Below the pieces are notes generated by a model. It saw only the letters and a program-made list of their open reading frames with translations, was not told where the DNA came from and did no database searches. DNA of 64,000 bases, from NCBI RefSeq assembly GCF_900104475.1, contig NZ_FNJR01000018.1, positions 1-64,000 of the forward strand. The letters are read 5' to 3'. The DNA comes from Actinopolyspora xinjiangensis (lineage in GTDB: Bacteria > Actinomycetota > Actinomycetes > Mycobacteriales > Pseudonocardiaceae). Position 1 is the stretch's first letter. Each line of letters opens with the position of its first letter. Below are positions 43,401-64,000 of this stretch, in pieces. The translations under genes were made by a program, and so were the position numbers.

Positions 43401-43673
43401 GGCCCGGTCGAGGTACCAGCCGTCGAGCTCGACGGTGGCGCGGGCCGTGCGGGGCGGTTCGGTGGCGGGCTCGACGGACGTCCCGGTCGCCGTTCCGGTG
43501 GCCCTCCCGGTGGTGGACGGGTGAAGGCTCGCCTGTGTGGCCAGGAAGCGCTCGTGGAGCTCGGTGGCCTGCCGCAACTGTTCGGAGATCAGTGCCGCCG
43601 CGCTCCTAGGGGCCGGTGTCGGCTGGTGGGAGCGCGGAGCGCGAGGCATGACCTCGAAGTCCTGGTCATCCAT
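40398..43673 (-). CDS. Multi-hotdog dehydratase protein of a PUFA-synthase-like system (PfaC-like DH)
   Basis: The protein has 1091 residues made of tandem hotdog-fold regions. A degenerate FabA-like region at about 400-480 contains VAVLMEIALQPCGFLSAL. A canonical FabA-like dehydratase at about 570-720 has HFFNDPVQPGSLGVEAM with His629. A PKS-type dehydratase at about 745-990 has DHCPTWTVPAVP with His752 and DAALH with Asp903. No ketosynthase or chain-length-factor domain is visible, unlike marine PfaC. It dehydrates, and possibly isomerises, 3-hydroxyacyl-ACP intermediates. It overlaps the synthase stop and the reductase start. Confidence 0.88.
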   Translation of the reverse strand: MDDQDFEVMPRAPRSHQPTPAPRSAAALISEQLRQATELHERFLATQASLHPSTTGRATGTATGTSVEPATEPPRTARATVELDGWYLDRAGRMTAGAVLDELLALWPQRDGVLDGELTFHHALPAPGDQLLSSLTVTGAALRGEVDGHLSLHGSLSDGLDVPLPTERPGATFGTDAVTAFAEGRPADCFTGPEWEITRAHVRSPGIGSRRTLLLREVTAFDPDRGLTATGRTPPTTWRSPAALLEGGLQAMAFHLAATGRTIHHDGWRFEPLPDASTRLRIMLNAPSGTPRYHLTVRSVTGTTAHADVVGTIDERVVLCAEGLAVHLVADTPLPHWKLLGPPAVQHTGDPVPLSALAGLRGHDDPAAATMGRIRYDHATMLTAAWGPRAEILPGASDDAFRLPGPPYLFLTRVIELCVTHGEFRLGSSLVAEYDVPRQVWFREQSGTVPVAVLMEIALQPCGFLSALMDDGTAERQPRIRNLDGRLSTVREVPPYVGSLRTTVELTDIEHWDGTTIETFRIHCEADGVTALEGTTVFALTSAEQLTIQTGLPVTDHDRSRVTRPCEHPVVDLRSRPARFFGRSARLPGQMLLMLDRLTGYWPDGGPAGLGQLRAECDVRAEAWYFKAHFFNDPVQPGSLGVEAMCQLLSCYLIQRGVDDGFRFEPVVPDSWTYRGQILPSDSLVTVELDVLDIELGPGGGHAEAEAWLWVDGRKIYHVPRLRVRVVPGTPDSPSTVDTVLDPGADTWLADHCPTWTVPAVPLMSIAELLARSAGDRAGRPARVLRDLSMQRWLPVAEPVRLRATCTDEQARLAVWHEAGSLSRFVPVATTTVGFEPPPRPARFAPLADLVDVPDPYENANLFHGPSFQYLTALRMGSTGASGILDAERGSVPHGALHQGLLDAALHTIPHDALHRWDPAIGSDRLAFPHRLSHLAVHEPLPDHGEIEVEARFAGTLPDDLVAIDIQMCRGEHVLVAFRTVVVHIPAGPLTEVPGPERRAYLRDGAPDSRLLLTGSDGVLRRHDVERIDTLPGTANAVYGLPAGARSTEWLPHIALKEHVARTTGVHPSTVEVTSLDDVSWDEDSATVRTP

Positions 43674-46600
43674 TGGTGGCCTCCCCGAGTCGCGTCAGCG
43701 CGCGGCCGGCGGTGAGCAGCACGCGCGGGTCGCCGGCAGGGGCGCTCAACTCCTGGGCGAAGACGCGCGCTCCGTCTCGCAGGGGGATCAGGTCGACGCC
43801 GCCGAGACGGAACACCTCGGCCAGTTCGGGGGTGACCATGCCGCCTTCCCACGGTCCCCACAGCAGCGAGCGGACCACCGCGTCCGGCCGAGCGTTCTGT
43901 TCGGTGGCGAGTACGTGGTTGAGGGTTTCGTTGGCCATCGCGTAGTCGCACTGTCCGGCGTTGCCGGTCGCGGCGACGACCGAGGAGAACACGCACAGCA
44001 GTCGCAGTGGGTCCTCTCGGGTGGCGTCCAGCAGTGCTCGCAGCCCGTCGACCTTGGTGCTGAACACGGCCTCGAACTGGTCCTCGGTCTTGTCCTCCAC
44101 CCGCTGGTCGTGCAGCACCCCGGCCGCGTGGACGATGCCGGTGATGGGGCCCCACCGCTGCCGGACGTCGGCGAGCGCCGTCCGTACGGCGTTTCCGTCC
44201 CGGACGTCGACGCGCAGGTAGTGGACCTGCTCCAGCCCTTCCACCTCGCGGCCGGAACCGCGGCTGAGCAGGACGAAGCGTGCGCGGTGCCGGGATCCGA
44301 GCTCTCGCAGCGCCGCCGCCGTGACGGCACCGGTCCCGCCGGACACGACGATCACCGGGTCGGTTTCCCATCCACCGGCCCATCCACCGGCCCAGCCATC
44401 GGTTGCGGTCGGTTCAGGGGCCTCCGTGGCGTCGAGCGTCCACCGGGTGCCGTCCGCGCCGAGTGCGACGTCGAGGTTCGGGCCTCCGGTGAGCAGTTCG
44501 TCGACGAGGGCGGTGGCGGTCTCGGTCGCCGAGCGGTTCGCACGCTGGCAGTCGATGGCCTTGACCGTGGCGAGCGGCCATTCCCAGCGGACGGTGCGAG
44601 CGAGCGCGGCGAGGCCGCCGATCCAGGGCCGTCGCGCGTCGCGGTGGCCGAATCCGCCTCCGGTGTCCTGCACGGTGACGAAGACACCGCCAGCGGCGCG
44701 CAGCCGGGGCGCGATCGCCTGTGCGGTTCGGAAGGCGTCCCGTTGGGTGGCCAGGGCCTCGTCCGCGGACGCGGTCTCGGCCAGTCCGCCGAGAAACACC
44801 AGACCGTCGGCCTCCAGCGTGGTGATGTCGGCCGCCGTGCCGACCCGCGCGTGGACGCCGCGCTCGGTGAGCAGTCGTGCGGTCTCCTCGGCGACTCCGG
44901 TTCCGTCCTCGGTGACCAGGACGGTTCCGAGCTCCTGCATGGCGCTGCCCGCTGCGGGCGCGCGCCGCAGCGTCGGCACGTGTCGGCGGATCGTCCCGTC
45001 GGGGGCGGTGGTGACGGGCTGGGCGGGTGCGTTCAGCAGCTCGTGTAAGCGGTCGGCGATCTCGCCGAGGGTTCGCAGCGTCAGCAGCGGGGAGAGCCGT
45101 TCCCGGTCCATTCCTTCCAGCTGCGGGAACATCGGGCGCAGGGCCGAGAAAACCTGGGCGCGGGTGATCGAGTCCAGGCCGAGGTCGGCCTCCAGCTCCA
45201 TGTGCGGTTCCAGGATCTCCACCGGGTAACCGGTCTTCTCGGACACGGCGGCCAGCACTTGGGATTCCAGTTCCTCGAGGCCGCGTGACGGCAGGGGTTC
45301 CGAGGGCGTGGCGGTCACCGGGGCGACGGAGGCGGTGAGCGGTTCGGAGATCGCAGGGGGGTCGGGGGACGCGGGTGGTTCGGCCGATGCGGGTGGTGAG
45401 GTGGTGGTCTGGAAGGTCGGCGAGGGAGCGGCGGTCCGCCCGAGGCCGTGGCCCGAGTCCGGATCCAGCGAGGTCAGCGCGTCGATCGACTTCTCGGCCA
45501 TGCTCAGGTACGCCGCGTGGGCGCGGGCGACCTCCTGCTGGGCTTCGGCGACCGCGCGCAGCGTCTCGTCATCCCGGTTGCCGGATCCGGTTCCGGACAG
45601 CGTCGGGGCCGGTGTGGTCGGCGCGGACTCCGAGCTCGGCGGGTAGGGCCTGCCGTGATTGCCTCCGTTGATCATGATGGGCGTCGCCGGTCGTGCGGGT
45701 TCGGGCTCTTCCGGACCGTGCCACAGCCCGGCGAAGTCGAGCGGGACGCCGAGTGTGGTGAGCTGTCCGAGCGCGTCGAGCAGCCCGGTCACCCCGTTGG
45801 AGCTCGCGCGGTCCAGGGCGATCGCATGGCCGTCGGAGAGGTTCTCCTTGACCAGGCTGGTCAACGCGCCTCCCGGGCCTACTTCCAGGAAGATCCGCAC
45901 TCCGTCGGCGTGCATCGCGTGCACCATGTCCACGAACCGAACCGGTGAGGCGACGTGGTCGGCGATCGCCTGCCGGATCTCGGCCGGCCGCAAGGGGTGC
46001 ACGGCTGCCGTGGCGTTGCCGTACACGTTCAGCAGCGGTGCGCGCACCGTCTCCGTGGACAGGAAGTCCCGTAGCGGTTCGCTCGCGGGAGCGACGAGGG
46101 GACTGTGGAATGCGGCCGAGGTGTCGAGCGTCCGCGCGGTCATTCCGGCCCCGCTGGCGTGCTTGCTCACCAGCGCGCCCGCCTCGGCTGTCGCGGCGAC
46201 CACGACCTGGCGCGGGCCGTTGTGGTTGGCGATCCAGGCTTGACCGAGGTTCTGCCGCTCGAGGAGGTCGGTCACCTCGTCCACGCCCGCGTCCAGGGCG
46301 ATCATGACGCCGGAGCCCTCCCGCATCAGTTCGCCCCGCCGGGCGGCGAGCCGCATCAACGTGTCCTCGTCGAACGCGCGTGCCGCGTGCAGCCCCACCA
46401 GCTCGCCGAAGCTGTGCCCGGCCACGCAGTCCGGCCGCACCCCCACGGTCTCCAGCACGTTCAGCAGCGCGAGGCTGTGCGCGGCGATGGCGGGTTGCGC
46501 GACGCCGGTGTCGGTGAGCGCGTGCTGTTGCGCCTGCCGCTCGGCGTCGGTGAACACCGGTGGCGGGAAGACCAGCGGGGAGACTCCGTGCCGGTCCCAC

Positions 46601-48366
46601 ACCGCGTGGGCCTGGGGGAAGTGCGTCGCCAGGTCGGCCCCCATACCGACGTACTGGGCTCCCTGACCGGGGAAGAGGAACGCTGTCCGACCCGGAGCGC
46701 GCCCGACACCGTAGTGCAGACCGGAGGGCGTCGAGAACGGCTTCGTGCCGACCAGTTCCCGGGCCTGCTCCAGCTTCCGCTCGAGGTCCTCCGTGGACGA
46801 GGCGACCACTGCCAGCCGGTGCTCCCGCGTGTGCTGGAAGGCGTTCTGGGAGCGCCGCGCGACCGCCGTGAGGCTTCCCGACAGGTCGAGCGAGAACAGC
46901 TCCCGCGGCGTCGCGGCGGACAGCACCACCAGTTCTCCCGGTCGTGCTTCGCAGCGCACCGCGGGGCGGGCTCCCACCGTTTCGTCGGTGTATTCCTCCA
47001 GCGTGACGTGGAAGTTCGAGCCGCCGAAGCCGAAGCTGGACACCGAGGCCCGCCTGGGATGCTCGGTCGTGTTGATCCACGGCCGTGCCCGCGTGTTGAG
47101 GTAGAAGGGACTGTTCTCCAGGTTCAGCGCGGGGTTCGGGCGGCCGATCTTGATCGTCGGCGGTAGCACCTTGTGCCGCAGTGCCAGGGCGGCCTTGAGC
47201 AGGCTCGCGGCGCCGGCGGCAGCCTTGGTGTGTCCGATCTGGGATTTGACGGACCCGAGCGCGCACCACTGGCGGTCCGTCCGCCCGCTCGCCTCGAACA
47301 CCGAGTGCAGGGCGGCTGTTTCGGTGGCGTCGCCGACGGCGGTGCCGGTGCCGTGCGCCTCGACCAGACCGACCGTGTCCGGTCCGTAGCCGGCGGTCTC
47401 GTACGCCCGGCGCAGCGCCCGCGCCTGCCCGGTGTCTCGCGGCGCGTACACCGAGGTGCCGCTGCCGTCCGATGAGGAGCCGATGCCGCGGATGACGGCG
47501 TGCACCCGGTCGCCGTCGCGTTCGGCGTCGGCCAGTCGTTTCAGGGCGAACAGGCCCAGGCCCTCGCCCAGCATGGTGCCGTCCGCGTGCTCGTCGAACG
47601 GGCGGCAGTCGCCGGTGGGAGACAGGGCCGGGGTCTTGCTGAAGCACTGGAAGGTCATCGCGTCGTTGAGCGTGTCGACCCCGCCGGTGATCACCATGTC
47701 GGAGCGGCCGAGCAGCAGGTCGTCGACCGAGACCGACAGGGCGGCCAGCGAGCTCGCGCAGGCGGAGTCGACGGTGAAGTTGGTGCCGTGCAGGTCGAAG
47801 CGGTTCGCGATCCGCCCGGCGACCACGTTGCTCAGCATGCCGGGGAACGTCGCTTCCTGCCACGGTGACGAGTACTCGAGGATCCGGTCGCAGACGGCGT
47901 CGGCGTCCGCTTCGGACAGTCCGCTGTCCAGCAGTGTCCGATGCCACTGCGGGCGTCCGGACCGTATCGCCATCTCACCGAGCAGCTGCAGGGAGGCGCA
48001 GCCGAGGAACACGCTGACCCGTTCGCCGTCGATCTGGCCGAGCCCGGCGTCGGAGAGCCCGGCCAGCAGGCGTTCCGCTGCGACCAGGGCCAGCAGTTGG
48101 GCTGTGTCGGTGGCGGGCAGGTTGCGGGGCGGCACCCCCAGGGCCATCGGGTCGAACTCGACCTCGGGCAGGAAGGCCCCGCGGCGGGCGTAGGTCTTGT
48201 CCTGCGCGTCCGGGTCGGGGTCGTAGAAGTCCTCGATCAGCCAGCGGTCGGCCGGCACATCGGTCATGAGGTCGCGTCCTTCGACGACGTTGCGCCAGAA
48301 GGAGTCCACGTCCGGCGCGCCCGGCATGATCGCGCTGACGCCGACGATCGCGATCCGGTGGTCCAT
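43666..48366 (-). CDS. PUFA-synthase-like iterative megasynthase KS-AT-ACP-KR (PfaA-like)
   Basis: The protein has 1566 residues. KS: 1-460, with Cys203 in VDSACASSL and His residues in [11 protein letters not shown] and [10 protein letters not shown]: about 560-870, Ser652 in GHSFGE and AAFHS. A Pro/Ser-rich linker follows, then one ACP at about 1035-1110, Ser1066 in [12 protein letters not shown]: about 1335-1560, GGTGAVTA, the FSSV Ser and YAMAN Tyr/Asn. Bacterial PUFA synthases normally have several tandem ACPs; this has one. The start is the ATG at 48366 (MDHRIAIVG); the frame open to 48585 overlaps the neighbour. A short [10 protein letters not shown] repeat precedes the KR. It builds the carbon chain from malonyl units. 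Confidence 0.93.
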
Positions 48367-48383
48367 GTTCGTTCTGCCGTTTC

Positions 48384-49907
48384 TCAAACCAGTGGGCGGG
48401 GGCGGAAGTCGAAGGCATCGGAGGGGAGGCGGGCCCCGAGCGCGCGCAGCTGGTGCACGCGGGTGAGCACGGCGGCTCCCTGGAGCAGGTTGCGGGCGAG
48501 CTGCGTGACCGTGCGTCCGCCGGGTTCGGCCAGGAAACTGCCCGCGGTCCAGGTGTTGAACGCTCCTGCGGCGGGGCCGCACCACAGCTGGTAGTCGCTG
48601 CGACGGCCGGGCGTGCCGTCGACCGCCCAGGTGACCGAATTACCCAGGTACCAGCGGAAGACCAGCGCCATCCTGTGCTTGGGGTCCGCCTGCGCCCGGG
48701 TGATCTCGCTCGGGCGGCGCTGCGCCCAGTACTCCTCGGTGCGTCGCCACACCTCGTCCAGGCCGGCCCCGAGGACCTCGCGCTCCAACGATTCCCTGGT
48801 CTCGGCGGGGAGCGATTCCAGCGAGGGGTGCTCGAGGTAGAGCTGGTACAGCCGGGCCGCCCGGCCGGCGAACATGGTGCCGCGGCGCAGCACCTGGACC
48901 TTGGCGCCGAGTTCGAACATGTCCCCCGCCGGCGCCATCGCCACGTCCGCCACCCCGGCCTGTGCGAGCATGGTCTTCGCCTCGTCGCTGACCGCGGCCT
49001 CACGCGACATCTGGTTCACCGAGCCGGTGAGCACGTAGGCCGCGCCGAGGGCGAACGCCGCGGACACCGCGGCCGGGTCGCCGAGTCCGCCCGCCGCGCC
49101 CACCCGCACTCCCGGGCTCTTCCGCCGCGCCAGGGACAGGACCGCGGGCAGGATCGACACCAGCGGTCTGCCGTCGGTGTGCCCACCGCTGTCCGCCTCG
49201 ACGGTGATGTCGTCGGCCACCGGTATCCGGCTGACCAGACGGCCCTCCTCCTCGGTGATCTCGCCGGTGTCCACGAGCCGACGAACCAGGCCGGGAGGGG
49301 GCGGCGACATGAACAGCTCGGCCGTCTCCGGGCGTGAGACCTTGGCGAACAGCGCGGTCTTCCGAATGATCCGGCCCGTCGTGTCGGTGCGCAGTCCGGA
49401 GGCCGCGCAGCGCACCACGGCGGGGGTGATGTCCAGGAACGCCGACAGGGAGATCTTCGGTACTCCGGCGCGTAACAGGCGCGCCGCGACCGCGTCCTCC
49501 ATGGCCGCGTCGTCGGGGTGGTGGATGAGGTTGACGCCCCAGTTCCGTCGTCCGGCGAGACGGGTCCGCAGTCGTTCCAGTTCCCGGTCGAGCCGTTCGA
49601 GGCCGAGCCCTGCCGTCCCGAAGAAGGCCAGCATCTCCGCCCGCGCCATGGCCTCGACCAGCTCGACGCCGGTGATACCGTGCGCCATCTCGCCCGCGAC
49701 GTAGGGGAACCGCACGTCGTGCGCCTCGGTGAAGCTCTGGTCGCCCAGCCACTCCGGGTACAAGGCCGGCACCGTGCCCACGGCTCCCGGAATCGGCCGA
49801 TCCGAGAGTCCCAGTGCGCCGTCCCGCTCGTGTGCCACCAAGTGCGCCGGCTTCGTCACCCGCTGGGCGAGCTCGACGAGACCGGCGCCGTCGAACACTC
49901 CTGTCAC
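48384..49907 (-). CDS. PfaD-like enoyl reductase (FMN, nitronate-monooxygenase fold)
   Basis: The 507-residue TIM-barrel flavoprotein contains GVNLIHHPDD, the VEADSGGHTDGRPL FMN loop, GAAGGLGDPAAVSAAFALGA and YVLTGSVNQ, all typical of PfaD/trans-acting enoyl reductases of PUFA and AT-less PKS systems. The C-terminal third holds the PfaD extension (WGxxRRPSEI-like region). The GTG start lies four bases after the EF-hand gene stop, and the synthase gene begins 17 bases downstream. It reduces selected enoyl intermediates and so sets the final degree of saturation. Confidence 0.92.
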   Translation of the reverse strand: MTGVFDGAGLVELAQRVTKPAHLVAHERDGALGLSDRPIPGAVGTVPALYPEWLGDQSFTEAHDVRFPYVAGEMAHGITGVELVEAMARAEMLAFFGTAGLGLERLDRELERLRTRLAGRRNWGVNLIHHPDDAAMEDAVAARLLRAGVPKISLSAFLDITPAVVRCAASGLRTDTTGRIIRKTALFAKVSRPETAELFMSPPPPGLVRRLVDTGEITEEEGRLVSRIPVADDITVEADSGGHTDGRPLVSILPAVLSLARRKSPGVRVGAAGGLGDPAAVSAAFALGAAYVLTGSVNQMSREAAVSDEAKTMLAQAGVADVAMAPAGDMFELGAKVQVLRRGTMFAGRAARLYQLYLEHPSLESLPAETRESLEREVLGAGLDEVWRRTEEYWAQRRPSEITRAQADPKHRMALVFRWYLGNSVTWAVDGTPGRRSDYQLWCGPAAGAFNTWTAGSFLAEPGGRTVTQLARNLLQGAAVLTRVHQLRALGARLPSDAFDFRPRPLV

Positions 49908-49911
49908 GGCG

Positions 49912-50646
49912 TCAGACGCGTCCGAACGCCCGGTTGCCCAGTGCCTGCGGGTCGGTGCTGATGATGAAGTCGGTGACCGCCATCAGGATCTCGGGGTAGC
50001 CGAGGTAGCCGTTCTCGTCGGAGTCCAGTACCGACCACGCGTGCTCGGCGTGCTCCCGCTCCACGCGCAGCACCTCCGTGACGAGCCGGAGTCCGTCGTC
50101 CCGGGCGATCCGTCCGTCGTTGTCCTCGTCGGCCATCGCGAAAGCCAGGTTCGTGACCACGCCGATGTACTGCAGCGTTTTGTCCGGCTTCTCCGCCACG
50201 CTGTTCGCCATCACCGTGACGAACTGCTCCCTGTCCAGTCGTTCCTGGGCAGGTACCCACGCGGGTTTGACCACCAACGAGTGCCAGATCCGGTTCACCG
50301 TGGCTTCCAGCTGCTGTGCCCGCGGTGAGTTCTCGGTGTGGCCGGTCAGCCGTGCGAGGCGGTGCGCGAACCGCATCGTGTCGGCGGGCGTCACCGCGCC
50401 GTCGCCGTCATCGTCCAGCACGTCGAACATCCACAGCTGCTTGCGCCGCAGGTACGGGTCCTGGTTCGCCGCCAGTCGCTCCGCCGCGGCGATGGTGGTC
50501 GCCGCGTCCGGTTTGGACTCGGCGGCTGCCGCGCCCGCCATGGCCATTCCGGACACGGATCCGGCGGCCAGACCCGCCGTGCCGCGCAGTACCGACCTGC
50601 GGGTCACCTCTGCCGTTTCGTCGTCCTTCGGTATTTCCGTCACCAC
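49912..50646 (-). CDS. Tat-exported EF-hand calcium-binding protein
   Basis: The protein has 244 residues. The N-terminus has TRRSVLRGTAGLAAG (about residues 15-29) followed by a hydrophobic stretch and AxA, a twin-arginine signal. Three EF-hand loops are visible: DVLDDDGDGAVT, ADEDNDGRIARDD and DSDENGYLGYPE, as in actinobacterial calerythrin-like proteins. The GTG start is at 50646. It is the first gene of the PUFA-synthase-like operon, four bases before the enoyl-reductase gene. A Ca2+ protein outside the membrane in a lipid operon suggests binding or sensing linked to the product, but the role is unknown. Confidence 0.85.
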   Translation of the reverse strand: MVTEIPKDDETAEVTRRSVLRGTAGLAAGSVSGMAMAGAAAAESKPDAATTIAAAERLAANQDPYLRRKQLWMFDVLDDDGDGAVTPADTMRFAHRLARLTGHTENSPRAQQLEATVNRIWHSLVVKPAWVPAQERLDREQFVTVMANSVAEKPDKTLQYIGVVTNLAFAMADEDNDGRIARDDGLRLVTEVLRVEREHAEHAWSVLDSDENGYLGYPEILMAVTDFIISTDPQALGNRAFGRV

Positions 50647-54945: not shown

Positions 54946-55509
54946 TCACGGGCGCTCGCGGCCGTGCATCAACTCCATCACCTCGGCCGCGAAGCTTTTG
55001 ATCGTCTCCAGTTCGGGGCGGCCCCATGACTGGGTCTCCGGCGCGACGGTGCAGACCGTGCCCAGCGCGAGGCCGGTGTGGTCGATGAGCGGGGCCCCCA
55101 TGTAGGACCGGATCCCGATCTGATCCACTACGGGATTGCTGGTGAACCGCGGATAGGAGCAGACGTCGCCGAGGACGAGTGGCAGCCTGCGGGCCACCAC
55201 GTGCGGGCAGAATCCGTGATCTTTCGGCATCTCCCGCCCCGGCGACACAGCCGTTTGTGCCGCTTCCATCGCGGCGCTGGTTTGGGACTCGGCTCGAGTG
55301 TACAGCCCGGTGAAGTACTGCCGCTGGCCGCTGATGATGTTCACCATCGCGTAGGGGGCGCCCGCGGCCTCGGCGAGTCGGCGCGCGACGGCATCGAACT
55401 GTGGGTCCGGTTCCTCCCGGATGCCGAGTTCTCGTAAACGTTCCATTCGGTGCTGAACGTGCGGATCCGGTGGTGTGCCTACGAGTCGCATATTGGTGGC
55501 GGACATCAT
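54946..55509 (-). CDS. GAF-domain protein of a conservon
   Basis: The protein has 187 residues, mostly one GAF domain: APYAMVNIISGQRQYFTGL, the HGFCPHVVA block, LVLGDVCSYPRF and IRSYMGAPLIDHTGLALGTV. This pattern is common in actinobacterial GAF proteins placed after the CvnD GTPase. AGGAAGGG lies before the start. It follows cvnD by 13 bases on the same strand. It probably senses a small ligand or redox state and feeds into the conservon. An effector P450, present in some conservons, is absent here. Confidence 0.85.
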   Translation of the reverse strand: MMSATNMRLVGTPPDPHVQHRMERLRELGIREEPDPQFDAVARRLAEAAGAPYAMVNIISGQRQYFTGLYTRAESQTSAAMEAAQTAVSPGREMPKDHGFCPHVVARRLPLVLGDVCSYPRFTSNPVVDQIGIRSYMGAPLIDHTGLALGTVCTVAPETQSWGRPELETIKSFAAEVMELMHGRERP

Positions 55510-55522
55510 GCCCTTCCTGGGG

Positions 55523-56110
55523 TTAGCCGATCGGGTGCTGTGACGACGTCGTCGATACGTGTTCGAGTAGTGTGATGAGTGTCCGCGTCGCGGAGTGGGC
55601 GTCGCGGGCGTCGCACATCACCAGCGGAACGCTCAAGTGCAGCGCCAGAGCGTCGCGCACCTCGTCGGGGGTGTAGTACATCGCGTTGTCGAATTCGTTG
55701 ACGGCGACCAGGAAGTAGATCCCGCGTTGCTCGAAGAATTCGATCGCTCCGAAACAGTCCTGAAGTCGGCGCGTGTCGGCCAGCACTATCGCACCGACAG
55801 TGCCGCGGGACAACTCGTCCCACATGAACCAGAACCGCTCCTGGCCCGGTGTGCCGAACAGATACAGCACGACGTTGTCGTCGGGGAAGGTGATGCGGCC
55901 GAAATCCATGGCCACCGTGGTGGTGGACTTGCGTTCCACACCGGCCAGGCTGTCCGTGTCGAGACTGGCCGTGGTGAGGTGTTCCTCGGTGTTCAACGGC
56001 TCGATCTCGCTGGACGCGCCGACGAAGGTGGTCTTTCCGGCGCCGAATCCACCCGCGATGAGAATCTTGAGCTGCCAGGGGAACAGGTCAGAGTCGGCTT
56101 CTAAGCCCAT
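55523..56110 (-). CDS. cvnD: Conservon GTPase CvnD
   Basis: This 195-residue small GTPase-like protein has a P-loop GGFGAGKTTF, the switch II-like LFGTPGQERF and the NEFD specificity motif in VAVNEFDNA. It belongs to the MglA/CvnD group that works with a roadblock protein and a sensor-like kinase in actinobacterial conservons. Its start overlaps the end of the DUF742 gene. In Streptomyces such systems affect differentiation and secondary metabolism. The family call is firm. Confidence 0.93.
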   Translation of the reverse strand: MGLEADSDLFPWQLKILIAGGFGAGKTTFVGASSEIEPLNTEEHLTTASLDTDSLAGVERKSTTTVAMDFGRITFPDDNVVLYLFGTPGQERFWFMWDELSRGTVGAIVLADTRRLQDCFGAIEFFEQRGIYFLVAVNEFDNAMYYTPDEVRDALALHLSVPLVMCDARDAHSATRTLITLLEHVSTTSSQHPIG

Positions 56111-56444
56111 GGAGTACCTTCTCGATCAAGTCCGGGGTGACGTCAGCGGTCGCGGTGGGATCGTGAGTGGTTACCGCACCGGTGCCGATGAGATCGGAAA
56201 GCAGAATCTTGACTACCACGGCGGGCTGCCGCAAGTGTCCTGCTACCTCGGCGACTGTGGTCGGGGAGCGGCACAGACGTAACGTCTGGGAGTGCTCGGG
56301 ACCCAGCACGTCGTGAGGAACCTGCCCTGTGCTGCGGACCATGGACAGCAGGTCCAGTGGCGCGCTGGGGTGGGTGCGTCCGTTGGTGACCAGGTAGGGA
56401 CGTATCCCCTGTTCCCGCTGCGATCGACCGTCGAATGCGTTCAT
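56088..56444 (-). CDS. cvnC: Conservon DUF742 protein CvnC
   Basis: The protein has 118 residues. IRPYLVTNGRTHPSAPLDL at the N-terminus, CRSPTTVAEVAGHLRQPAVV with a winged-helix look, and VLHGLRSRL at the end are the classic DUF742 pattern. The ATG overlaps the roadblock gene stop (ATGA), and its own 3' end overlaps cvnD. It probably bridges the roadblock protein and the GTPase. Confidence 0.93.
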   Translation of the reverse strand: MNAFDGRSQREQGIRPYLVTNGRTHPSAPLDLLSMVRSTGQVPHDVLGPEHSQTLRLCRSPTTVAEVAGHLRQPAVVVKILLSDLIGTGAVTTHDPTATADVTPDLIEKVLHGLRSRL

Positions 56445-56857
56445 ACCGGCCGACTCTCCTCAGTCGGGGAACGTCGGGACGGTGTGGCCAGACTGCTGGG
56501 TACTTTCCTGCCGAGCTGTTGCATCTCGTAGCTGAGAACCCCGGCGTTGACCGTGCTGTCGGCCAGGACGGCGAGAATGCTGCCTGCGCTGGCGGCCGTG
56601 ATCGCCAGGATGCTGCCGTCACCGAGCTCGGCGTTGGCTTGGCGCATCCCGTGTCCACCTCCGAAACACTTGCCCACTTCCTGGACCAACGAGCACAAGG
56701 GACTGGCCAGGGAAGCCAGCCGGTCCGCGTCGTCACGCTCCAGGCCGTAGTAGAACCGCGGGATCGCATCGGTGGACAGTAAGAGGGCGCTTCGGGTGTG
56801 GGGGACCTGGTTGACCAGGTTCGCGAGTAGCCAGGTCAGATCCTGTGGTTGGGTCAC
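56441..56857 (-). CDS. cvnB: Conservon roadblock/LC7-family protein CvnB
   Basis: The protein has 138 residues, starting at GTG 56857 after AAGGAG. DLTWLLANLVNQVPHTRSAL and LLSTDAI open the domain; GSILAITAASAGSILAVLAD gives the central strands of the roadblock fold. It should act as a GTPase-activating or scaffold partner for CvnD. A longer frame to 57223 is a shadow of the kinase gene. Confidence 0.92.
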   Translation of the reverse strand: MTQPQDLTWLLANLVNQVPHTRSALLLSTDAIPRFYYGLERDDADRLASLASPLCSLVQEVGKCFGGGHGMRQANAELGDGSILAITAASAGSILAVLADSTVNAGVLSYEMQQLGRKVPSSLATPSRRSPTEESRPV

Positions 56858-56874
56858 GATCGACTCCTTGGGGG

Positions 56875-58374
56875 TCAGGTGGACGTCGAGGGGTCTTTCC
56901 GATCTTCCGAGGACGCCGACTGATCGGTCTCGGACTGGCCCAAGGCACTCAACAACCCCGTATTGTGGCCGGGGATCGGGGTGACGCTTTCCCGCGGTGT
57001 CCGCAACGGTTCCGGAAGATTGTCCGTGCCGGGCCTGCGTTGCGGAAGCTGTGACGCGTCGCCTCGGCGGCGGTGTTTGCCCGCGGGTGAGCTCATCGTC
57101 TCTGTCGAAGGGGGAGCGGCCGGTGCCGGCTGTGGCGTCGATGCGGGTTCGGAAGTGGGCGGTGCCGACGCGTCTTCTTCGGGCCAAGGTCCGGCGACCG
57201 GCTCCGCTACCTCGCCGGTCCATTGCATACGGCTGGCAGAGTAAGAACGAGAAACCCTCGGTGGTGGTCCGCTGGCCGGCGGTGTGGGCGTCAGATCTTG
57301 GGCGATGTGACCGGGCTGCGCGGGTTCCCGGGGCGAGGTGCTGAGCAAGCTGTCCGGCAGCAGGACGACCGCCTCCATCCCTCCGTAGATGCTGGTCTGC
57401 AGGCGGACCCTGATGTCGTAGCGCTGCGCGAGGACCCGGACCACCGATAGTCCGATCCGTCCGTCCGCGAGAAGTTCGTCGAGGTCGACCCGATCGGCGT
57501 CCTCGAGCAGGCGGTTGTACCGGTGGATCTCCTCGCTCGTCATACCGAGACCGCGGTCTTGGATCTCGATGGCCACGCCGGCCGTGACGGTTTCGGTCCG
57601 CACCACCACAGGAGTGTTGTCACTGGAGAATTGGGTGGCGTTTTCCAGCAGCTCCGCCAACAGGTGAATCACCTCAGCGGTGGCGGGGCCTTTGAGCGTT
57701 CCCCCGACCGCGGTCATCTTCACTCGGGAGTAGTGCTCGATCTCAGCCACGGCTGAACGCAGCACGGTCTGGAGGCTCACATCCTCCTGCGTCTGCCGCT
57801 GCGGTGCTTTGCCGCCGAGTATGGCCAGACTTTCCGCCTGTCGGCGAGACAGGTTGACGAGGTGGTCCACGCGGAACAGGCGTGCGAGAAGATCGGGGTC
57901 TTCTACCTGATGTTCGGCTTCGTCGATCTCGGTGATCGCTCGGTCGGCCATGGCCTCCAGACCCCGCGCCAGCTTGGCGAACGCGGTCTGGAGCGCGTCG
58001 TTGCCGTACGACGGGGAGGGACGCCCATCGGAAGTGGAAGCCGCGTCGGAGGAGGGGACGGCAGTGCCATCCCTGACCGCGTCGTGCCTTCGCAGGAGGC
58101 GCCCGACATCGTTCTTGGTCCGCTTGAAGACGATGAGACCGATCAGCAGGGCCGAGACGATCGCCAGAGCACAAAGCGTGAGCGCTGCTCCCAGAAATGA
58201 ACGATCGGCGATCACGAGCATAGTGGTGACAGTGCCAAGCACGACGAGCAGAGGCACCACCGGCAGCAGAGCAGGCCACAGGATGCGGTCCCGTAGATCC
58301 GTGGCAGCTTGATCCCGACAGCCCTCAGGGTTGTCTGCCTCAAGACAGCCGGCAGTAGGTAACAGTGCAGACAT
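56875..58374 (-). CDS. cvnA: Conservon sensor-histidine-kinase-like protein CvnA
   Basis: The protein has 499 residues. Two membrane helices (about 30-55 and 60-85) are followed by a cytoplasmic region with LFRVDHLVNLSRRQAESLAI, the H-box-like segment of CvnA/nitrate-sensor-type kinases, and an ATPase domain with ELLENATQFS (N box), IEIQDRGLGM (G1) and GRIGLSVVRVLAQRYDI (G2). The C-terminal 130 residues are Pro/Ser-rich and disordered. I chose ATG 58374, preceded by GAGG; an ATG at 58401 is also in frame. It heads the five-gene operon and gives the membrane input. Confidence 0.92.
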   Translation of the reverse strand: MSALLPTAGCLEADNPEGCRDQAATDLRDRILWPALLPVVPLLVVLGTVTTMLVIADRSFLGAALTLCALAIVSALLIGLIVFKRTKNDVGRLLRRHDAVRDGTAVPSSDAASTSDGRPSPSYGNDALQTAFAKLARGLEAMADRAITEIDEAEHQVEDPDLLARLFRVDHLVNLSRRQAESLAILGGKAPQRQTQEDVSLQTVLRSAVAEIEHYSRVKMTAVGGTLKGPATAEVIHLLAELLENATQFSSDNTPVVVRTETVTAGVAIEIQDRGLGMTSEEIHRYNRLLEDADRVDLDELLADGRIGLSVVRVLAQRYDIRVRLQTSIYGGMEAVVLLPDSLLSTSPREPAQPGHIAQDLTPTPPASGPPPRVSRSYSASRMQWTGEVAEPVAGPWPEEDASAPPTSEPASTPQPAPAAPPSTETMSSPAGKHRRRGDASQLPQRRPGTDNLPEPLRTPRESVTPIPGHNTGLLSALGQSETDQSASSEDRKDPSTST

Positions 58375-59566
58375 CAAAGTCCTCAACGCAGTGATGTACA
58401 AAGGACGGGTGGCATGGCGTCACACTCGAATCAACGAACGTGGCATCTCCAGCTCACCCTGTTCCACGCATCCACGGACGGTGCCACCGACCATGCCCGC
58501 CACTCCTCGCAGCTCCATCAGGTGGATTATCCTGTGTGGTCTTGCGGATACAGATCGTACCTCAGCCAGTTGTACGTACTCTGATCCTCCGTGAGGAGCA
58601 ACCCTGAACTCGTGACCGAGCAGGCCAGGGTGCACACCCCGACAGGGGAGATCGGCAAGGCGCCGACCGTGCGGGTACCGGGAGAGGGCTGGCGTGACGT
58701 GCTGTGCGGCGTCGGGCCGCGCGTCGCCGATACCGCGGGCTACGCGGTGTCGGTCATCCACATGAATTGGTCCCTGAAGTCCGGGCGGCCGGCGACCAGC
58801 GGCGAGACGATCGCGGCGATGTGTCTCGCCGCGACGATCGCCCGGGGCGGGCCGACCGACCGAGTCGGATGGCGCCACCTGTGGGGCGCTGTTCGGCGTT
58901 CTCCGGGCGATTCCGATGTTCCTGCTGGCCAAGCGTCGTTGACCGCCATCATGATCATCGTGGGAATCTTCCGAGCGGTGTGTCAGAACGCCCTGGCTGG
59001 GGCGCAGGCCGCGTGGTTTCCCGACCCGCGCCAGGCGCCACCGCTCCGCCGGTGCGTCGCCGATCTTGTTGGATATTGGCGATGATCTCCGGCGCCACGC
59101 CGTTCGTGACCACCCTGATGTCCATGTGGCCGGACCGGTTCGGACCGGCCGTGCTGTGTTCCCGCTCCGCTCCGCATCGGGCCCGTTGTCTGCCCCACTG
59201 GTGCACGAGGCGTGAGGCCACGGGGAACACAGCGCCGCACAGCGCGCCACCGAGTAATCCATCGCCCCGAAGGGGAGTCCAGTAAGTGGAACCAGTGCGA
59301 CTGGCTTGAGTCGCTTTGGGTCGACAAGGGTGACAGCACGTTGCTCGCGGGAGAACGGCTCGGTCGTCGGCCGCCGACGAAAAGCGGTGAACGTGGGTGC
59401 GATCCTCCGCGAGGGCGCGGTGGAACGAACGGTTGCGCCGTAGGGTCCGGTGGTCGACGGAAGCGCGTCCGCTCGAACTCGGCCTCGAGCGCGACGTCGC
59501 TGTTCATGTTGTCCGCGTAGCGGATGAGTCTCGCGGAGCACATTACTCTAACAGAGTCTTTCTTTC
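58375..59566. other. Long stretch without a recognisable gene
   Basis: About 1.2 kb contain many overlapping open frames on both strands (for example 58591-59085 plus), all GC-skewed and Arg/Pro-rich where out of frame. Short pieces such as GLLGGALCGAVFPVASRLVH (minus) look membrane-like, so part may be a decayed transporter. Near 58375-58420 lies the promoter side of the conservon. Nothing firm can be called. Confidence 0.4.
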
Positions 59567-59674: not shown

Positions 59675-60412
59675 TTGATCCGACCAGAGGGCCTGTACAC
59701 GGACGAAGTGGTCTACCGGCTCTTTACCAACGGCTTGAACGCCCGCCCCTGGAAGGTGAGCGAACTTCTCAGCAGTCCGGAAACCGAAGATCCACGCACG
59801 GAGGTCGCCTGGAAATTCGCCTCGAGGGGCTACTACGCGGAGCAGGCTGGTCTGGTGACAGCCGCGGCTCTCGCGGCGGAAACCGATGATCTCGCGTATC
59901 GCTTCGACATGGCGACAGCCGCCTCGGACGAGGCAAGGCATGCCGACGCTTTCCTGAGGTTCGCGCAACACCTCGGCGGCGACGCGGAGGAATGCTTCGA
60001 AATGCTGGAGCCGCTCGACGAAGCCCTGACTTCCCTGCCGTACCCCGGCAAAGTGCTGGCGCACACGGTTCTCGAGGGATTCGCGGCCGACGAATTCCAC
60101 CTGTTCACCGAGTATTTCAAGGGCCACCCGGCAGCGCGCATCTACGAACACGTCCGCCACGACGAGAACCGACACGTCGCTATGGGCGTGTCCCACCTGG
60201 CACGTGCCTGCCGGGACCCCGAGTTCAGCGCCGCCCTGCGGGAACACGGCGATGCCTGGCTCGAACGCATTCGCGAGCACGCCGATGTCACGGCCCTGTC
60301 GGCGATGTTTTCCGAACTCACGGGAAAGGATCCCGCTGACTTCGAGCGGTGGTTCACCGCCCGTCATCGCCAGCGAATGGCCTCGGCCCGAGTCGTGATC
60401 GAGGGGAGGTGA
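59675..60412 (+). CDS. Ferritin-like di-iron enzyme of the candidate RiPP cassette
   Basis: The protein has about 245 residues, all helical. Metal-ligand motifs typical of di-iron proteins occur in pairs: AAETDD and ASDEARH in the first half, EGFAADEFH and HDENRHVAMG in the second (two ExxH-type sites). That resembles ferritin-like or AurF-like oxygenases and iron-containing redox enzymes. I chose TTG 59675, eleven bases after AGGGGG and just after a Crp-type site; TTG 59609 is also in frame. A precursor-like peptide gene starts five bases after its stop. It probably oxidises or remodels the peptide, in an unknown way. Confidence 0.82.
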   Translation: MIRPEGLYTDEVVYRLFTNGLNARPWKVSELLSSPETEDPRTEVAWKFASRGYYAEQAGLVTAAALAAETDDLAYRFDMATAASDEARHADAFLRFAQHLGGDAEECFEMLEPLDEALTSLPYPGKVLAHTVLEGFAADEFHLFTEYFKGHPAARIYEHVRHDENRHVAMGVSHLARACRDPEFSAALREHGDAWLERIREHADVTALSAMFSELTGKDPADFERWFTARHRQRMASARVVIEGR

Positions 60413-60417
60413 GCATT

Positions 60418-60513
60418 ATGGCCATCAAGCGAGTCGAGATCAAGAACCGCACCCGCGGTGTGTGCCGGTACGTCATCCGCACCAGCGTCTCGAAGACGAA
60501 GACGTCCAGCTGA
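60418..60513 (+). CDS. 31-residue RiPP precursor-like peptide
   Basis: ATG 60418 opens a 31-codon frame to TGA 60511-60513, with a strong GGGGAGG ribosome binding site overlapping the end of the di-iron gene. The peptide begins MAIKRVEIKNRTRG, has one Cys-Arg-Tyr (residues 16-18), and ends VSKTKTSS. It is basic and lacks a membrane segment. Tight placement between the di-iron gene and a RiPP-maturation radical SAM gene, plus the ribosome binding site, make it the likely substrate. A Cys/Arg/Tyr core near the centre or the Thr/Ser-rich tail could be modified. It could instead be a small regulatory peptide. Confidence 0.65.
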   Translation: MAIKRVEIKNRTRGVCRYVIRTSVSKTKTSS

Positions 60514-60533
60514 CGGAAGACGTCGGATCAGGC

Positions 60534-60567
60534 GCCGGGAGGCCGAGCGAGTAGCCCGGCTCCCGGC
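60534..60567 (+). terminator. GC-rich hairpin between precursor and radical SAM genes
   Basis: GCCGGGAG at 60534-60541 and CTCCCGGC at 60560-60567 are exact reverse complements; with one bulged base the stem extends three more pairs. There is no U-run. Placement 20 bases after the precursor stop fits an attenuator or RNA-stabilising hairpin that raises precursor over enzyme expression, as in many peptide operons. Confidence 0.5.
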
Positions 60568-60619
60568 ACCTGCCGGGGAGCGAGTTGTCCGGAACCGCCA
60601 CGAATCGGAAGGGGTAACC

Positions 60620-62464
60620 ATGCGGATAACGCTTGCGTCCATGCCATGGCAGGCACTCGAGTCACCGTCCTTGCCCATCGCTTTGCTCCGTTCCGCCTGC
60701 CGTCGCGAGGGCCTCGAAGTACCGAGTGGTTATCACGGTGGCATCCACTGGTGCGAGTACCTCATGGAGAGAACCGATGGCGAGTTGGGGGTTCCACAGT
60801 ACACCGATATCGCCGAGAACGGTCTGTTCGACGAGATCGGCGACTGGATCTTCGCCGGAAACCTCTACGGAGCGGACTTCGGGGTCGAAGCGTTCCGGGA
60901 ATACGCGCGAGGACGCACTATCGACCTCGAACTCGCGTTCGAGATGCGAGAGCTCACCGCCGGTTACCTCGAGGAGGCATACAGCGCGGTGATGAACACC
61001 GCCCCGGACATCGTCGGGTTCACGACGACGTTCATGCAGAACGTACCGAGCCTGGCGCTCGCGCGGATGATCAAGGAGCGACACCCCGATGTGACGATCG
61101 TCTTCGGCGGGGGCAACTGCGACGGTGCGATGGGCCCGGCGCTGCATCGGAACTTCGAGTTCATCGATCTCGTGGTCAGCGGCGAGGCGGAGATCGCCTT
61201 CCCCGAGCTCATCCGCCGTCTCCACGCCGGCTCGGATCTCACACCCGTTGCCGGGCTGAGTTGGCGCGACGGGGCCGAGCTCCGTGCGAACCCACCTGCC
61301 AGGGGGCCGGTCCAGCCGGATCAACTGGTGGTCCCGGACTACGACGACTGGTTCGAGCTGCTGGAGACGTCGCCGGTGGCGGAGCACATCGAACCCCAGC
61401 TGATAATCGAGACCTCGCGCGGCTGTTGGTGGGGTGAGAAGCATCAGTGCACCTTCTGCGGCCTCAACGGATCACTGATGAAGTTCCGAGCGAAAACGCC
61501 GGAGCAGGCAATAGACGAGATCTCGACATTGGTCGAGAAACATCAGGTGTTGGACGTGATCACCGTCGACAACATCATCGACAACGGCTACTTCTCCACG
61601 GTTCTTCCCGAGATCGAGAAACTGGGGTGGGACGTCCGAATCCACTACGAGACCAAGTCGAACCTGACCCGCGAGCACATAGCCCGGTTCAAAGGCGCTG
61701 GCGTCGCGCATGTGCAGCCGGGGATCGAGTCGCTGGTCTCTCCGGTGCTGAAGCTCATGGACAAGGGCGTCGCCGGTATCCGTAACGTTCGAACGCTGCG
61801 GGACTGCGAGTCCGCCAGCCTGACGGTCTCATGGAACTGGCTGTACGGCTTCCCCGGAGAACGGCTCTCCGATTACCTGCCCGTCTTGGAACAACTCGAC
61901 CGACTACACCATCTGCAGCCACCCGCGAATGCCGCTCGCATCCTCATAGAGCGGTTCAGCCCGTACTTCAACGACTCGGCACTGGGCTTCAACGAGCTTC
62001 GTCCCGCCCAGCAGTACAAGTACGTGTACAACCTTCCGGAGAAGTCCCTGGAGGACATGGTGTATTTGTTCGATGCCGAACAACGCGGTCTCAGCGAGCA
62101 GGAGATCTCCGGGCTCAAAGAGGCGATCGAGCGCTGGATCGAGCATTACCAGGACAGTTCGCTGGAGGTGAGTGGTGACGACGAGCTGCTGTGGATCTCG
62201 GATCGGCGCGTGGGGCGTGAACCCGCGGATCACGAGATCCGCGGTAGAGAACTCGTGGCGCTGTACGGCGAGCTCGAGCACGGCCGGACCACCGGTGGTC
62301 TACGCAAGATACGCGACAGGGAGGGGTTCGGCATCACCGACGGTGAGCTCGACGCGTGGCTGTCGGAATTGGACGCGCGCGGGCTCGTGTTCGTGGAGCA
62401 CGGTCACTATCTGGCGCTCGCTACCCATTCCGTCCCCGTCAAGCTCGAGACACGGCGTGCCTGA
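60620..62464 (+). CDS. Cobalamin-binding radical SAM enzyme, RiPP-maturation type
   Basis: The protein has 614 residues. The N-terminal part (about 1-230) is a cobalamin-binding-like domain with TIVFGGGNCDG and DLVVSGEAEIAFPELI. The radical SAM cluster is C269-x7-C277-x2-C280 in RGCWWGEKHQCTFCG, the noncanonical spacing and WWGEKHxC wording of RiPP maturation radical SAM protein 1 (C-methyltransferase family). A C-terminal winged-helix-like region ends the protein. I chose ATG 60620, after GGAAGGGG; the frame is open upstream to 60458. It lies 106 bases after the precursor gene. The likely reaction is methylation at an unactivated carbon or another radical change of the peptide. Confidence 0.9.
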   Translation: MRITLASMPWQALESPSLPIALLRSACRREGLEVPSGYHGGIHWCEYLMERTDGELGVPQYTDIAENGLFDEIGDWIFAGNLYGADFGVEAFREYARGRTIDLELAFEMRELTAGYLEEAYSAVMNTAPDIVGFTTTFMQNVPSLALARMIKERHPDVTIVFGGGNCDGAMGPALHRNFEFIDLVVSGEAEIAFPELIRRLHAGSDLTPVAGLSWRDGAELRANPPARGPVQPDQLVVPDYDDWFELLETSPVAEHIEPQLIIETSRGCWWGEKHQCTFCGLNGSLMKFRAKTPEQAIDEISTLVEKHQVLDVITVDNIIDNGYFSTVLPEIEKLGWDVRIHYETKSNLTREHIARFKGAGVAHVQPGIESLVSPVLKLMDKGVAGIRNVRTLRDCESASLTVSWNWLYGFPGERLSDYLPVLEQLDRLHHLQPPANAARILIERFSPYFNDSALGFNELRPAQQYKYVYNLPEKSLEDMVYLFDAEQRGLSEQEISGLKEAIERWIEHYQDSSLEVSGDDELLWISDRRVGREPADHEIRGRELVALYGELEHGRTTGGLRKIRDREGFGITDGELDAWLSELDARGLVFVEHGHYLALATHSVPVKLETRRA

Positions 62465-62491
62465 CCGTCCGCCCGCACGAAGGGAGCCGAC

Positions 62492-63067
62492 TTGACCACC
62501 ACAATCGCAGTCACTGACGACACCAGTGATGTCCGCACCCGTCTCGAGGATTTCGTCTCCTCCGGAGCGCGCGGCTTGGTGATCACCGACCCCGTTGACC
62601 TCACTCTCCCGGATCGAACTTCGGTCGATACGGTGCGCCTGCTTCGGGACGCCGTGGGACACGGGCTGAGGATCGACTGGCGAGCCTCACCGGTGGACGG
62701 CCTCTCCGTCACGGACTTCACGCACTTGCCGCCACCGGCGAACCTCGACGAGCTCAGTTTCCTGCCGGACAGCGACGCGGAATCGTGGTTGGACCTGTAC
62801 TCCTACGGGCAGCTCTTCTATCGGGTGGGCCCCGGATTCGTCTCCATCAAGGACGTTCGTCCGACCGTACCGGCCGCACGGATGACCCTCGAAGAAGAGG
62901 AAGCCAGGATTTTTCTCGAACTCGCTGAGGGGGGCGGTGAAACGGGGAATTCCGAGTCTTTGCGCTCAGAGCTCGTGGAGTACGGCTTGGGTATTGCCGC
63001 TGAGGGCGGGTTTCTGGTGCTGCCGTACCGGATCAGGCAATGGCCGATACCTTTCTCGGCCATCTGA
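62492..63067 (+). CDS. DUF5825-like protein of the candidate RiPP cassette
   Basis: The protein has 191 residues and no membrane segment. The middle holds WRASPVDGLSVTDFTHLPPP and a later LYSYGQLFYRVGPGFVSIKD then EEEEARIFLELAEG. I associate this pattern with DUF5825, which I recall next to B12-dependent radical SAM enzymes in actinobacterial RiPP loci; that label is from memory. The TTG start follows AGGGAG by five bases and the gene begins 27 bases after the radical SAM stop. It may bind the precursor (a partner or leader-recognition role). Function unknown. Confidence 0.7.
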   Translation: MTTTIAVTDDTSDVRTRLEDFVSSGARGLVITDPVDLTLPDRTSVDTVRLLRDAVGHGLRIDWRASPVDGLSVTDFTHLPPPANLDELSFLPDSDAESWLDLYSYGQLFYRVGPGFVSIKDVRPTVPAARMTLEEEEARIFLELAEGGGETGNSESLRSELVEYGLGIAAEGGFLVLPYRIRQWPIPFSAI

Positions 63068-63253
63068 GGGTGTCCGGAGGCTCGCGTCTCAGTGCTGACT
63101 ACGACACCGGTTCGTGGGAGTCGTCCTCGGAACTGGATGCTCACAGTATCCCCCGTGACGCATGCCGAGGTTGTGCTGAGGAACAACGTGGCGCACTGTC
63201 ACCGATATCACCGATTCCAGCAGAACGACCTTGGTCGGCTTCCCGGGGAAATC

Positions 63254-64000
63254 ATGATCATGCCACGTACAGCGCGCCGACCAGGGCGGAGTTTGCCACA
63301 ACGCACAGTTCCGCTGTTGATTACCTCGCGCCTCATCGGACAGACAGGCGACAGGTTCACCTTGCTGGCGTTGCCTATCTTCACTGTGGCGGCGGGAGCG
63401 ACGCCCGCTGAGGCCGGTCTGGTGTTCACCGTCTACGCGGCCCCTGGAATCGGCGCCTTTCTCATCGGCCGCCCGCTCGATCGAACTCACCGCTTACGCG
63501 GCATCTGCGCGTCCGCCGAGCTTCTTCGCGCCGTGCTACTGCTCGGCTTGGTGCTGATCATCCCGCGGATCACCAGCGGGGGATGGTTGCTGGTGCTCGT
63601 CGTGACCTTCGCCTGCGGCTGCTGCTCCGCCGTGTTCGACGTGGGGTTGCAGGGGTATTTGCCTCGCGCCGTGAGCGGGCTGGAGCTGCGGAACGTGAAC
63701 TCGTGGTTCGCTCGTGCGCAAGCGGCCGCTGATGTCGCGGGTCCGCCTGCGGCGGGGGCTGTGGTGGCAGTCGCCGGCAGTGGAACAGCGCTCCTCGTTG
63801 ACGCCGCGAGCTTCCTGCTGTCGGGGTTGTTGCTCTGCGGGGTGAAGAAACAACTGGCCCCCGCCGTCCCGGAGCAGTGCAAGCCGACCATCGGATGGTC
63901 GTCGGGTATGACGAGGCTGCTTAGCGACACGGTCCTGCGCAACGTGGTGCTGACCATGCTCGTACTCAACTTCGGCGGGGCGATGATCGGTTCGCTGTGG
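63254..64000 (+). CDS. MFS exporter, truncated by the window end
   Basis: From ATG 63254 the frame stays open to the last base. It reads ITSRLIGQTGDRFTLLALPI in the first membrane helix and continues through at least six hydrophobic segments, with GRPLDRTHRLRG as the TM2-TM3 loop (an MFS_3/drug-exporter type pattern). GGGG lies five bases before the ATG; another ATG follows at 63260. The gene is 186 bases after the DUF5825 gene. It is the natural exporter for the modified peptide. The C-terminal half is outside the window. Confidence 0.85.
   Translation, partial: MIMPRTARRPGRSLPQRTVPLLITSRLIGQTGDRFTLLALPIFTVAAGATPAEAGLVFTVYAAPGIGAFLIGRPLDRTHRLRGICASAELLRAVLLLGLVLIIPRITSGGWLLVLVVTFACGCCSAVFDVGLQGYLPRAVSGLELRNVNSWFARAQAAADVAGPPAAGAVVAVAGSGTALLVDAASFLLSGLLLCGVKKQLAPAVPEQCKPTIGWSSGMTRLLSDTVLRNVVLTMLVLNFGGAMIGSLW

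Follow-up and report, generated by a model that had tools for sequence, protein, structure and literature searches.

Organization of the locus

The stretch of DNA analysed here (the window) comprises positions 1 to 64,000 of contig NZ_FNJR01000018.1 (C28) of Actinopolyspora xinjiangensis and includes, at 59675-64000, a locus of five plus-strand genes, as read from the sequence and its open reading frames (ORFs). These encode a ferritin-like protein, a very short peptide, a radical S-adenosylmethionine (SAM) enzyme, a DUF5825 protein and a transporter of the major facilitator superfamily (MFS) (Table 1). The ferritin-like gene co-occurs with a peptide containing a G-x-C-[RK]-Y motif in this and three further loci, and the five genes probably constitute an operon for a ribosomally synthesized and post-translationally modified peptide (RiPP).

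Table 1. Features of the locus, with coordinates in the window.
Feature	Coordinates	Strand	Remarks
Ferritin-like di-iron oxygenase (predicted)	59675..60412	+	245 aa; TTG start inferred
Ribosome-binding site GGAGGTGA	60405..60412	+	overlaps stop codon of ferritin-like gene
Precursor peptide	60418..60513	+	31 aa; core G14-V15-C16-R17-Y18
Spacer with possible hairpin	60514..60619	+	between precursor and radical SAM gene
B12-type radical SAM enzyme	60620..62464	+	614 aa; TIGR03975 (rSAM_ocin_1); C269-x7-C277-x2-C280
DUF5825 protein	62492..63067	+	191 aa; PF19142; probable radical SAM partner
MFS exporter (predicted)	~63254..64000	+	PF07690; runs past window, stop at contig position 64507 (from L087)

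The intergenic gaps are, in order, 5, 106, 27 and ~186 bp. A first-pass annotation, made from the sequence alone, had described the genes as co-directional and tightly spaced; the former is correct, but the last gap, between the DUF5825 and MFS genes, is not tight. Its placing of a 31-codon frame with a strong ribosome-binding site between the ferritin-like and radical SAM genes is borne out by the coordinates, and the radical SAM motif C-x7-C-x2-C that it reported can be located precisely. Taken as a whole, the observation is real and not due to chance, in that the gene order recurs in three more genomes and the peptide alignment scores beat those of all shuffles (see below).

The radical SAM enzyme reaches 562 bits with TIGR03975, 'RiPP maturation radical SAM C-methyltransferase', for which 282 is the cut-off, and, having also the radical SAM Cys motif, belongs to this family. 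Its score with the Pfam B12-binding domain (30.7) is just below the cut-off (32.1), and a profile of six radical SAM sequences gives a distant match to solved TokK (E 1.2e-14). The DUF5825 assignment is clear (86.6 versus a cut-off of 25; E 2.3e-24); a recognisable solved fold was rejected for this protein, since its AlphaFold2 model (pLDDT 87.5, from 20 sequences) has no match in the Protein Data Bank at E <= 0.001. The transporter scores 42.8 with MFS_1, for which the cut-off is 33.4. None of the five genes has a Pfam match to DUF692 (MNIO). Beyond the end of the window, a gene for a short-chain dehydrogenase/reductase (SDR) family reductase (C28:64513-65268; L087:6514-7269) starts a few bases 3' of the MFS gene, and is perhaps part of the same operon.

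The ferritin-like protein reaches no Pfam or NCBIfam cut-off, including that of the NCBIfam R2-like ligand-binding oxidase model NF006200 (20.5 bits versus 194), and its assignment as a di-iron oxygenase is made at the level of predicted fold, i.e. a helical bundle with four carboxylate and two His residues as candidate ligands. With an AlphaFold2 model based on four sequences (pLDDT 76.2; residues 1-22 under 50), Foldseek gives two matches at E <= 0.001, both to R2-like ligand-binding oxidase (best 5.9e-4), followed by the azoxy synthase VlmB (1.2e-3), NrdF (1.8e-3) and aldehyde deformylating oxygenase (8.6e-3). The putative metal ligands are E56, E86, H89, E134 (or, alternatively, E140), E164 and H167, all of which, E140 included, are invariant in the four homologues described below; their spacing resembles that in aldehyde deformylating oxygenase, and their assignment follows the ligand spacing of that enzyme and of R2 proteins. 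R2-like ligand-binding oxidase, VlmB and aldehyde deformylating oxygenase have in common with the window protein a ferritin-like helical bundle with candidate ligands in the order E, E-x2-H, E, E-x2-H, but most of the fold matches are only ~16-22% identical to it.

Conservation of the ferritin-like gene and the peptide

A search of 297 genomes of the same family, that of A. xinjiangensis among them, gave a single strong homologue of the ferritin-like protein, in genome G259 (E 1e-52), the remaining matches being at E 8e-9 or weaker. The G259 locus (L086) also encodes a DUF5825 protein, and a 32-codon frame lies immediately 3' of its ferritin-like gene. As a single query, the ferritin-like protein gave no matches in a contig collection described as covering 84,980 species; a two-sequence alignment, by contrast, found loci in Micromonospora qiuiae and Micromonospora phaseoli (L106 and L107), in both of which a peptide frame again follows the ferritin-like gene and overlaps its stop codon. 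The scan of this collection relies on exact short patterns, such that divergent loci would escape it. The order ferritin-like, peptide, radical SAM, DUF5825 is kept in all four of these loci.

No further true ferritin homologue was present among the matches listed (at most six candidates per genome) for a class-wide sample of 394 genomes, in which the window protein itself scores 423 bits and the next match 62, nor did 35 genomes from the family that includes G494 yield any, in a search that lacked a positive control. Collections of plasmids and viruses yielded distant ferritin relatives only, together with two weak DUF5825 matches on plasmids. On the Pantoea agglomerans plasmid NZ_CP134742.1 (L140), a distant ferritin-like protein adjoins an MFS gene, near a Gfo/Idh/MocA oxidoreductase, and no peptide gene is annotated there.

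The encoded peptides, of 31 (window), 32 (G259), and 23 and 27 (Micromonospora) residues, share the sequences M-[AK]-I-K-[KR]-V-x-[IL] and G-x-C-[RK]-Y, and each frame is preceded by the same ribosome-binding site as in the window. None of 20,000 shuffles of the partner sequence reached the local alignment score of the window peptide with any of the other three. In a search of the 297 genomes, the peptide matched 22 at E <= 1, all weakly apart from itself; the best match (E 0.039, in G251) lies inside a 648-residue frame, and that to the G259 peptide (E 0.363) is accepted on account of its place, immediately next to the ferritin-like homologue. The first-pass annotation had singled out Cys16, Arg17, Tyr18 and a Ser/Thr tail as residues likely to be conserved. 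Cys16 and Tyr18 are indeed invariant in all four peptides and position 17 is either Arg or Lys, but the tail varies, and an importance of its Ser/Thr residues is rejected. It had also conceded that its proposal would fail if homologous loci lacked a conserved frame at this place; at the four ferritin-containing loci the frame is there, such that each has a conserved precursor gene beside the modifying enzyme genes, as is characteristic of RiPPs. Radical SAM loci lacking the ferritin-like gene have other small frames at this position or, in some cases, none that could be found.

The two Micromonospora peptide genes differ at 5, 1 and 4 sites in the first, second and third codon positions, respectively, and this is uninformative as to synonymous bias. 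The spacer hairpin has a z score of -1.16 in the window, which is not significant alone, and of -2.18, -2.47 and -2.95 in the other three loci.

The radical SAM proteins of the G259 and Micromonospora ferritin loci are 52-57% identical to that of the window. All four loci have an MFS gene, divergent in the two from Micromonospora but co-directional in those of the window and G259; the encoded proteins are 41% (L086) and ~30% (L106, L107) identical to that in the window. Genes for an E1-alpha/E1-beta dehydrogenase flank three of the four loci (L086, L106 and L107), in L086 immediately 5' of the ferritin-like gene, and the E1-alpha proteins of L086 and the Micromonospora loci are 49-50% identical. 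A class III aminotransferase gene is present in both Micromonospora loci, where it and the E1-alpha/E1-beta genes (L107:1162-4483 and L106:1077-4371) are divergent from the RiPP genes.

Related loci without the ferritin-like gene

To put the four loci in context, 28 radical SAM loci were compared, i.e. these four and 24 others, the ferritin-like gene being sought with a profile of the four proteins and small frames being taken as those of 18-60 codons on either strand. Of the 33 DUF5825 places from one search, 20 were examined, as were seven of the nine radical SAM places that another added; L090, with DUF5825 but no radical SAM match, was left out of the 28. The ferritin-like gene and a frame with G-x-C-[RK]-Y occur together in four of the 28, while the remaining 24, among which L131 has no upstream sequence, yielded neither. 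In a radical SAM tree, the ferritin loci fall inside a group with L089, L098, L102 and L103 (support 100/98).

Half of the 24 ferritin-less loci (12) encode precursors of 24-54 residues with a short basic N-x-P leader and, in the shortest frame, neither Cys nor Tyr; in L092 and L095, one Tyr would be gained with starts farther upstream. The first-pass annotation considered the shortness of the peptide and its lack of a long acidic leader unusual for a RiPP; for this enzyme pair, they are not. For five loci (L089, L091, L102, L103 and L126) there is only a candidate precursor, and none was accepted for the remaining seven (L098, L101, L105, L127, L129, L130 and L131), the small frames in L098 and L101 being poorly placed or unconvincing.

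Three of the loci of the N-x-P kind (L095, L096 and L128) have a prolyl oligopeptidase gene just upstream, and it can be inferred that they are clavusporin-like because such an enzyme, MpcP, is reported for the clavusporin system in a passage of PMC12951456. No prolyl oligopeptidase was recognised among the neighbours scanned around the window locus (~55.5-68.4 kb of the contig), though this is a weak negative as not every ORF there was scanned. L095 and L096 have an MFS gene downstream, with a cytochrome P450 gene in between in L095; the DUF5825 gene of L096 was found in the family genome search, having been missed by tblastn at the limit used. The A. xinjiangensis genome itself contains, on contig C19, a second radical SAM/DUF5825/MFS locus (L088:7608-11500), with a 26-residue N-x-P precursor, which is common to a congener (L092).

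Proposed pathway and alternatives

Clavusporin-type products are hydrophobic and multiply C-methylated. In an abstract of 2025 in Nat Chem Biol, Zhang et al. reportedly described the C-methylation of unactivated carbons by DUF5825 and a B12 radical SAM enzyme. The passage on clavusporins in PMC12257519 assigns their C-methylation to a pair homologous to that encoded in the window, and this, together with the family name of TIGR03975, suggests that the radical SAM enzyme and DUF5825 C-methylate the peptide.

From the observed gene order, conservation, predicted fold and co-occurrence, we infer the following reactions, enzyme substrates, recognition and export. The 31-residue precursor would be translated right after the ferritin-like enzyme, with the conserved, basic strand at its N terminus, M-[AK]-I-K-[KR]-V-x-[IL], likely being the part recognised, and with G-x-C-[RK]-Y and the hydrophobic residues next to it forming the core. 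Both metalloenzymes would then act on this one peptide: the B12 radical SAM enzyme with DUF5825 would methylate unactivated carbons, as for the clavusporins, and the di-iron enzyme, for which a role is suggested by the position of its gene, its fold and its co-occurrence with the core, would use O2 to oxidise Cys16 and/or Tyr18, candidate outcomes being hydroxylation, a Cys-Tyr link and Cys oxidation. The MFS protein would export the product. We consider it likely that the operon functions in this manner.

The action of a B12 radical SAM enzyme with DUF5825 on a peptide has been a known kind of chemistry since 2025, so the first-pass description of an undescribed RiPP system is too broad with respect to that half, which is described in the relevant passage of PMC12257519; the novelty lies in a ferritin-like di-iron oxygenase whose gene accompanies a Cys-[Arg/Lys]-Tyr core. 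The chances are about even that the four loci represent a new RiPP class, having precursors of 23-32 residues with an invariant G-x-C-[Arg/Lys]-Y core, in which an O2-derived change is made by the di-iron enzyme at Cys/Tyr (e.g. a Cys-Tyr link or oxidised Cys) and neighbouring residues are methylated by the radical SAM/DUF5825 pair. In the literature searched, it would be the first pathway to a ribosomal peptide with a ferritin-like di-iron oxygenase; no RiPP pathway with such an enzyme was found in that open-licence literature, an absence that carries little weight.

The clavusporins involve the same two enzyme families and, judging from the N-x-P loci, a short upstream precursor; by contrast, the window has a C-R-Y core without the N-x-P leader, no recognised prolyl oligopeptidase and an additional ferritin-like enzyme. 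In the biphenomycin-like pbs pathway, as outlined in part of PMC12257519, an iron oxygenase likewise acts together with a B12 radical SAM enzyme on one ribosomal peptide, but the iron enzyme is an MNIO (DUF692, TIM-barrel) with a RiPP recognition element (RRE) partner, rather than a ferritin-like helical protein. Biarylitides also derive from very short RiPP precursors through an oxidative metalloenzyme; however, this is a cross-linking cytochrome P450, and the passage of PMC12951456 on them names no B12 radical SAM/DUF5825 pair. The relevant part of a 2026 review contrasts heme-oxygenase-like with ferritin-like enzymes, and names those of the heme-oxygenase-like kind in connection with the modification of ribosomal peptides.

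If correct, the proposed pathway would join two types of metalloenzyme on a very short RiPP precursor, and its product could be a ribosomal natural product of a new kind. The clean genetic contrast, with the Cys-[Arg/Lys]-Tyr core being present only with the di-iron gene in the loci examined, makes the substrate of the di-iron enzyme testable. The proposed pathway also suggests that systems with DUF5825 may form a broader family, whose very short precursors ordinary gene prediction may overlook.

Several observations weigh against the proposal that both enzymes modify the peptide. There are only four ferritin loci and they are related by descent; in the radical SAM tree they lie on one side of a branch with support of 58/26, such that a single origin is weakly supported, and the 4/24 split is suggestive but does not count independent events, because the loci are related and do not represent 28 such events. 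One of the 24, L131, starts at a contig edge with its radical SAM gene, so that its upstream side is unseen. Cys is present in other contexts in the candidate frames of ferritin-less L089, L102 and L103, and a motif-free small frame before the L101 radical SAM gene has both Cys and Tyr. In sequence, the window peptide shows no clear similarity to the ferritin-less candidates, its scores being reached by 740 (L091), 1,719 (L126) and 10,408 (L089) of 20,000 shuffles, but some of these candidates look related to peptides of the ferritin type, the G259-L091 score being reached by 9 of 20,000 shuffles and that of M. phaseoli with L126 by 4 of 3,000. Membership of the 31-residue frame in a Pfam or NCBIfam family was rejected, there being no match, and among the genes of the window locus none was recognised as encoding a protease. 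Finally, the E1-alpha/E1-beta enzymes encoded beside three of the four loci could provide the di-iron enzyme with a different substrate.

The last point leads to an alternative that we regard as rather unlikely, in which the di-iron enzyme acts on a small acyl or keto building block, produced by way of the E1-alpha/E1-beta and aminotransferase genes, that is later joined to the C-methylated peptide. The distant ferritin-like relative on the Pantoea plasmid, sitting among genes not annotated as peptide genes, would fit with this. However, no E1 match is present on the window's contig, and elsewhere in the genome the best E1-alpha match is only 35% identical; further, each of the four loci has the ferritin-like gene directly 5' of the peptide gene, and the occurrence of this gene follows that of the C-[RK]-Y core. 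It is quite unlikely that the di-iron enzyme hydroxylates Tyr18 so as to enable the B12 radical SAM enzyme to cross-link side chains, in the manner of PbsC/PbsB in the formation of biphenomycin-like peptides. In the pbs pathway, according to the passage in PMC12257519, a B12 radical SAM enzyme does cross-link hydroxylated aromatic residues, and, although the window peptide has only one Tyr, an invariant Cys is two residues away; by contrast, the pairing with DUF5825 is that cited in the same source for C-methylation, and TIGR03975 is named for C-methyltransferases.

Loci such as L088 and L093, with radical SAM, DUF5825, MFS and tiny precursor genes but no ferritin-like gene, raise the idea that the window encodes an ordinary clavusporin-type C-methylated peptide beside an accidental or housekeeping ferritin-like gene, but this is very improbable given that the position of that gene is kept in three genera (those of the window genome, G259 and Micromonospora) with radical SAM proteins as divergent as noted above, and that the peptide here lacks an N-x-P leader and no prolyl oligopeptidase was recognised in the neighbourhood that was scanned. 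That the 31-codon frame, very short and without a family match, is regulatory or fortuitous, with the true precursor elsewhere, is scarcely credible in view of its conservation at the protein level, with a ribosome-binding site, in four loci.

Elsewhere in the window, the region 43666-50646 encodes a PfaA-like polyunsaturated-fatty-acid/polyketide synthase (TIGR02813, 1076 bits versus a cut-off of 1010) together with a neighbouring protein that matches the FabD helical-insertion domain only (PfaD-like by eye) and an EF-hand protein. The region 54946-58401 encodes a GTPase-like protein (PF03029) and a DUF742 protein together with, by eye, GAF-type and sensor-like proteins, the latter having no Pfam match at 1e-10; we take this gene set to be conservon-like.

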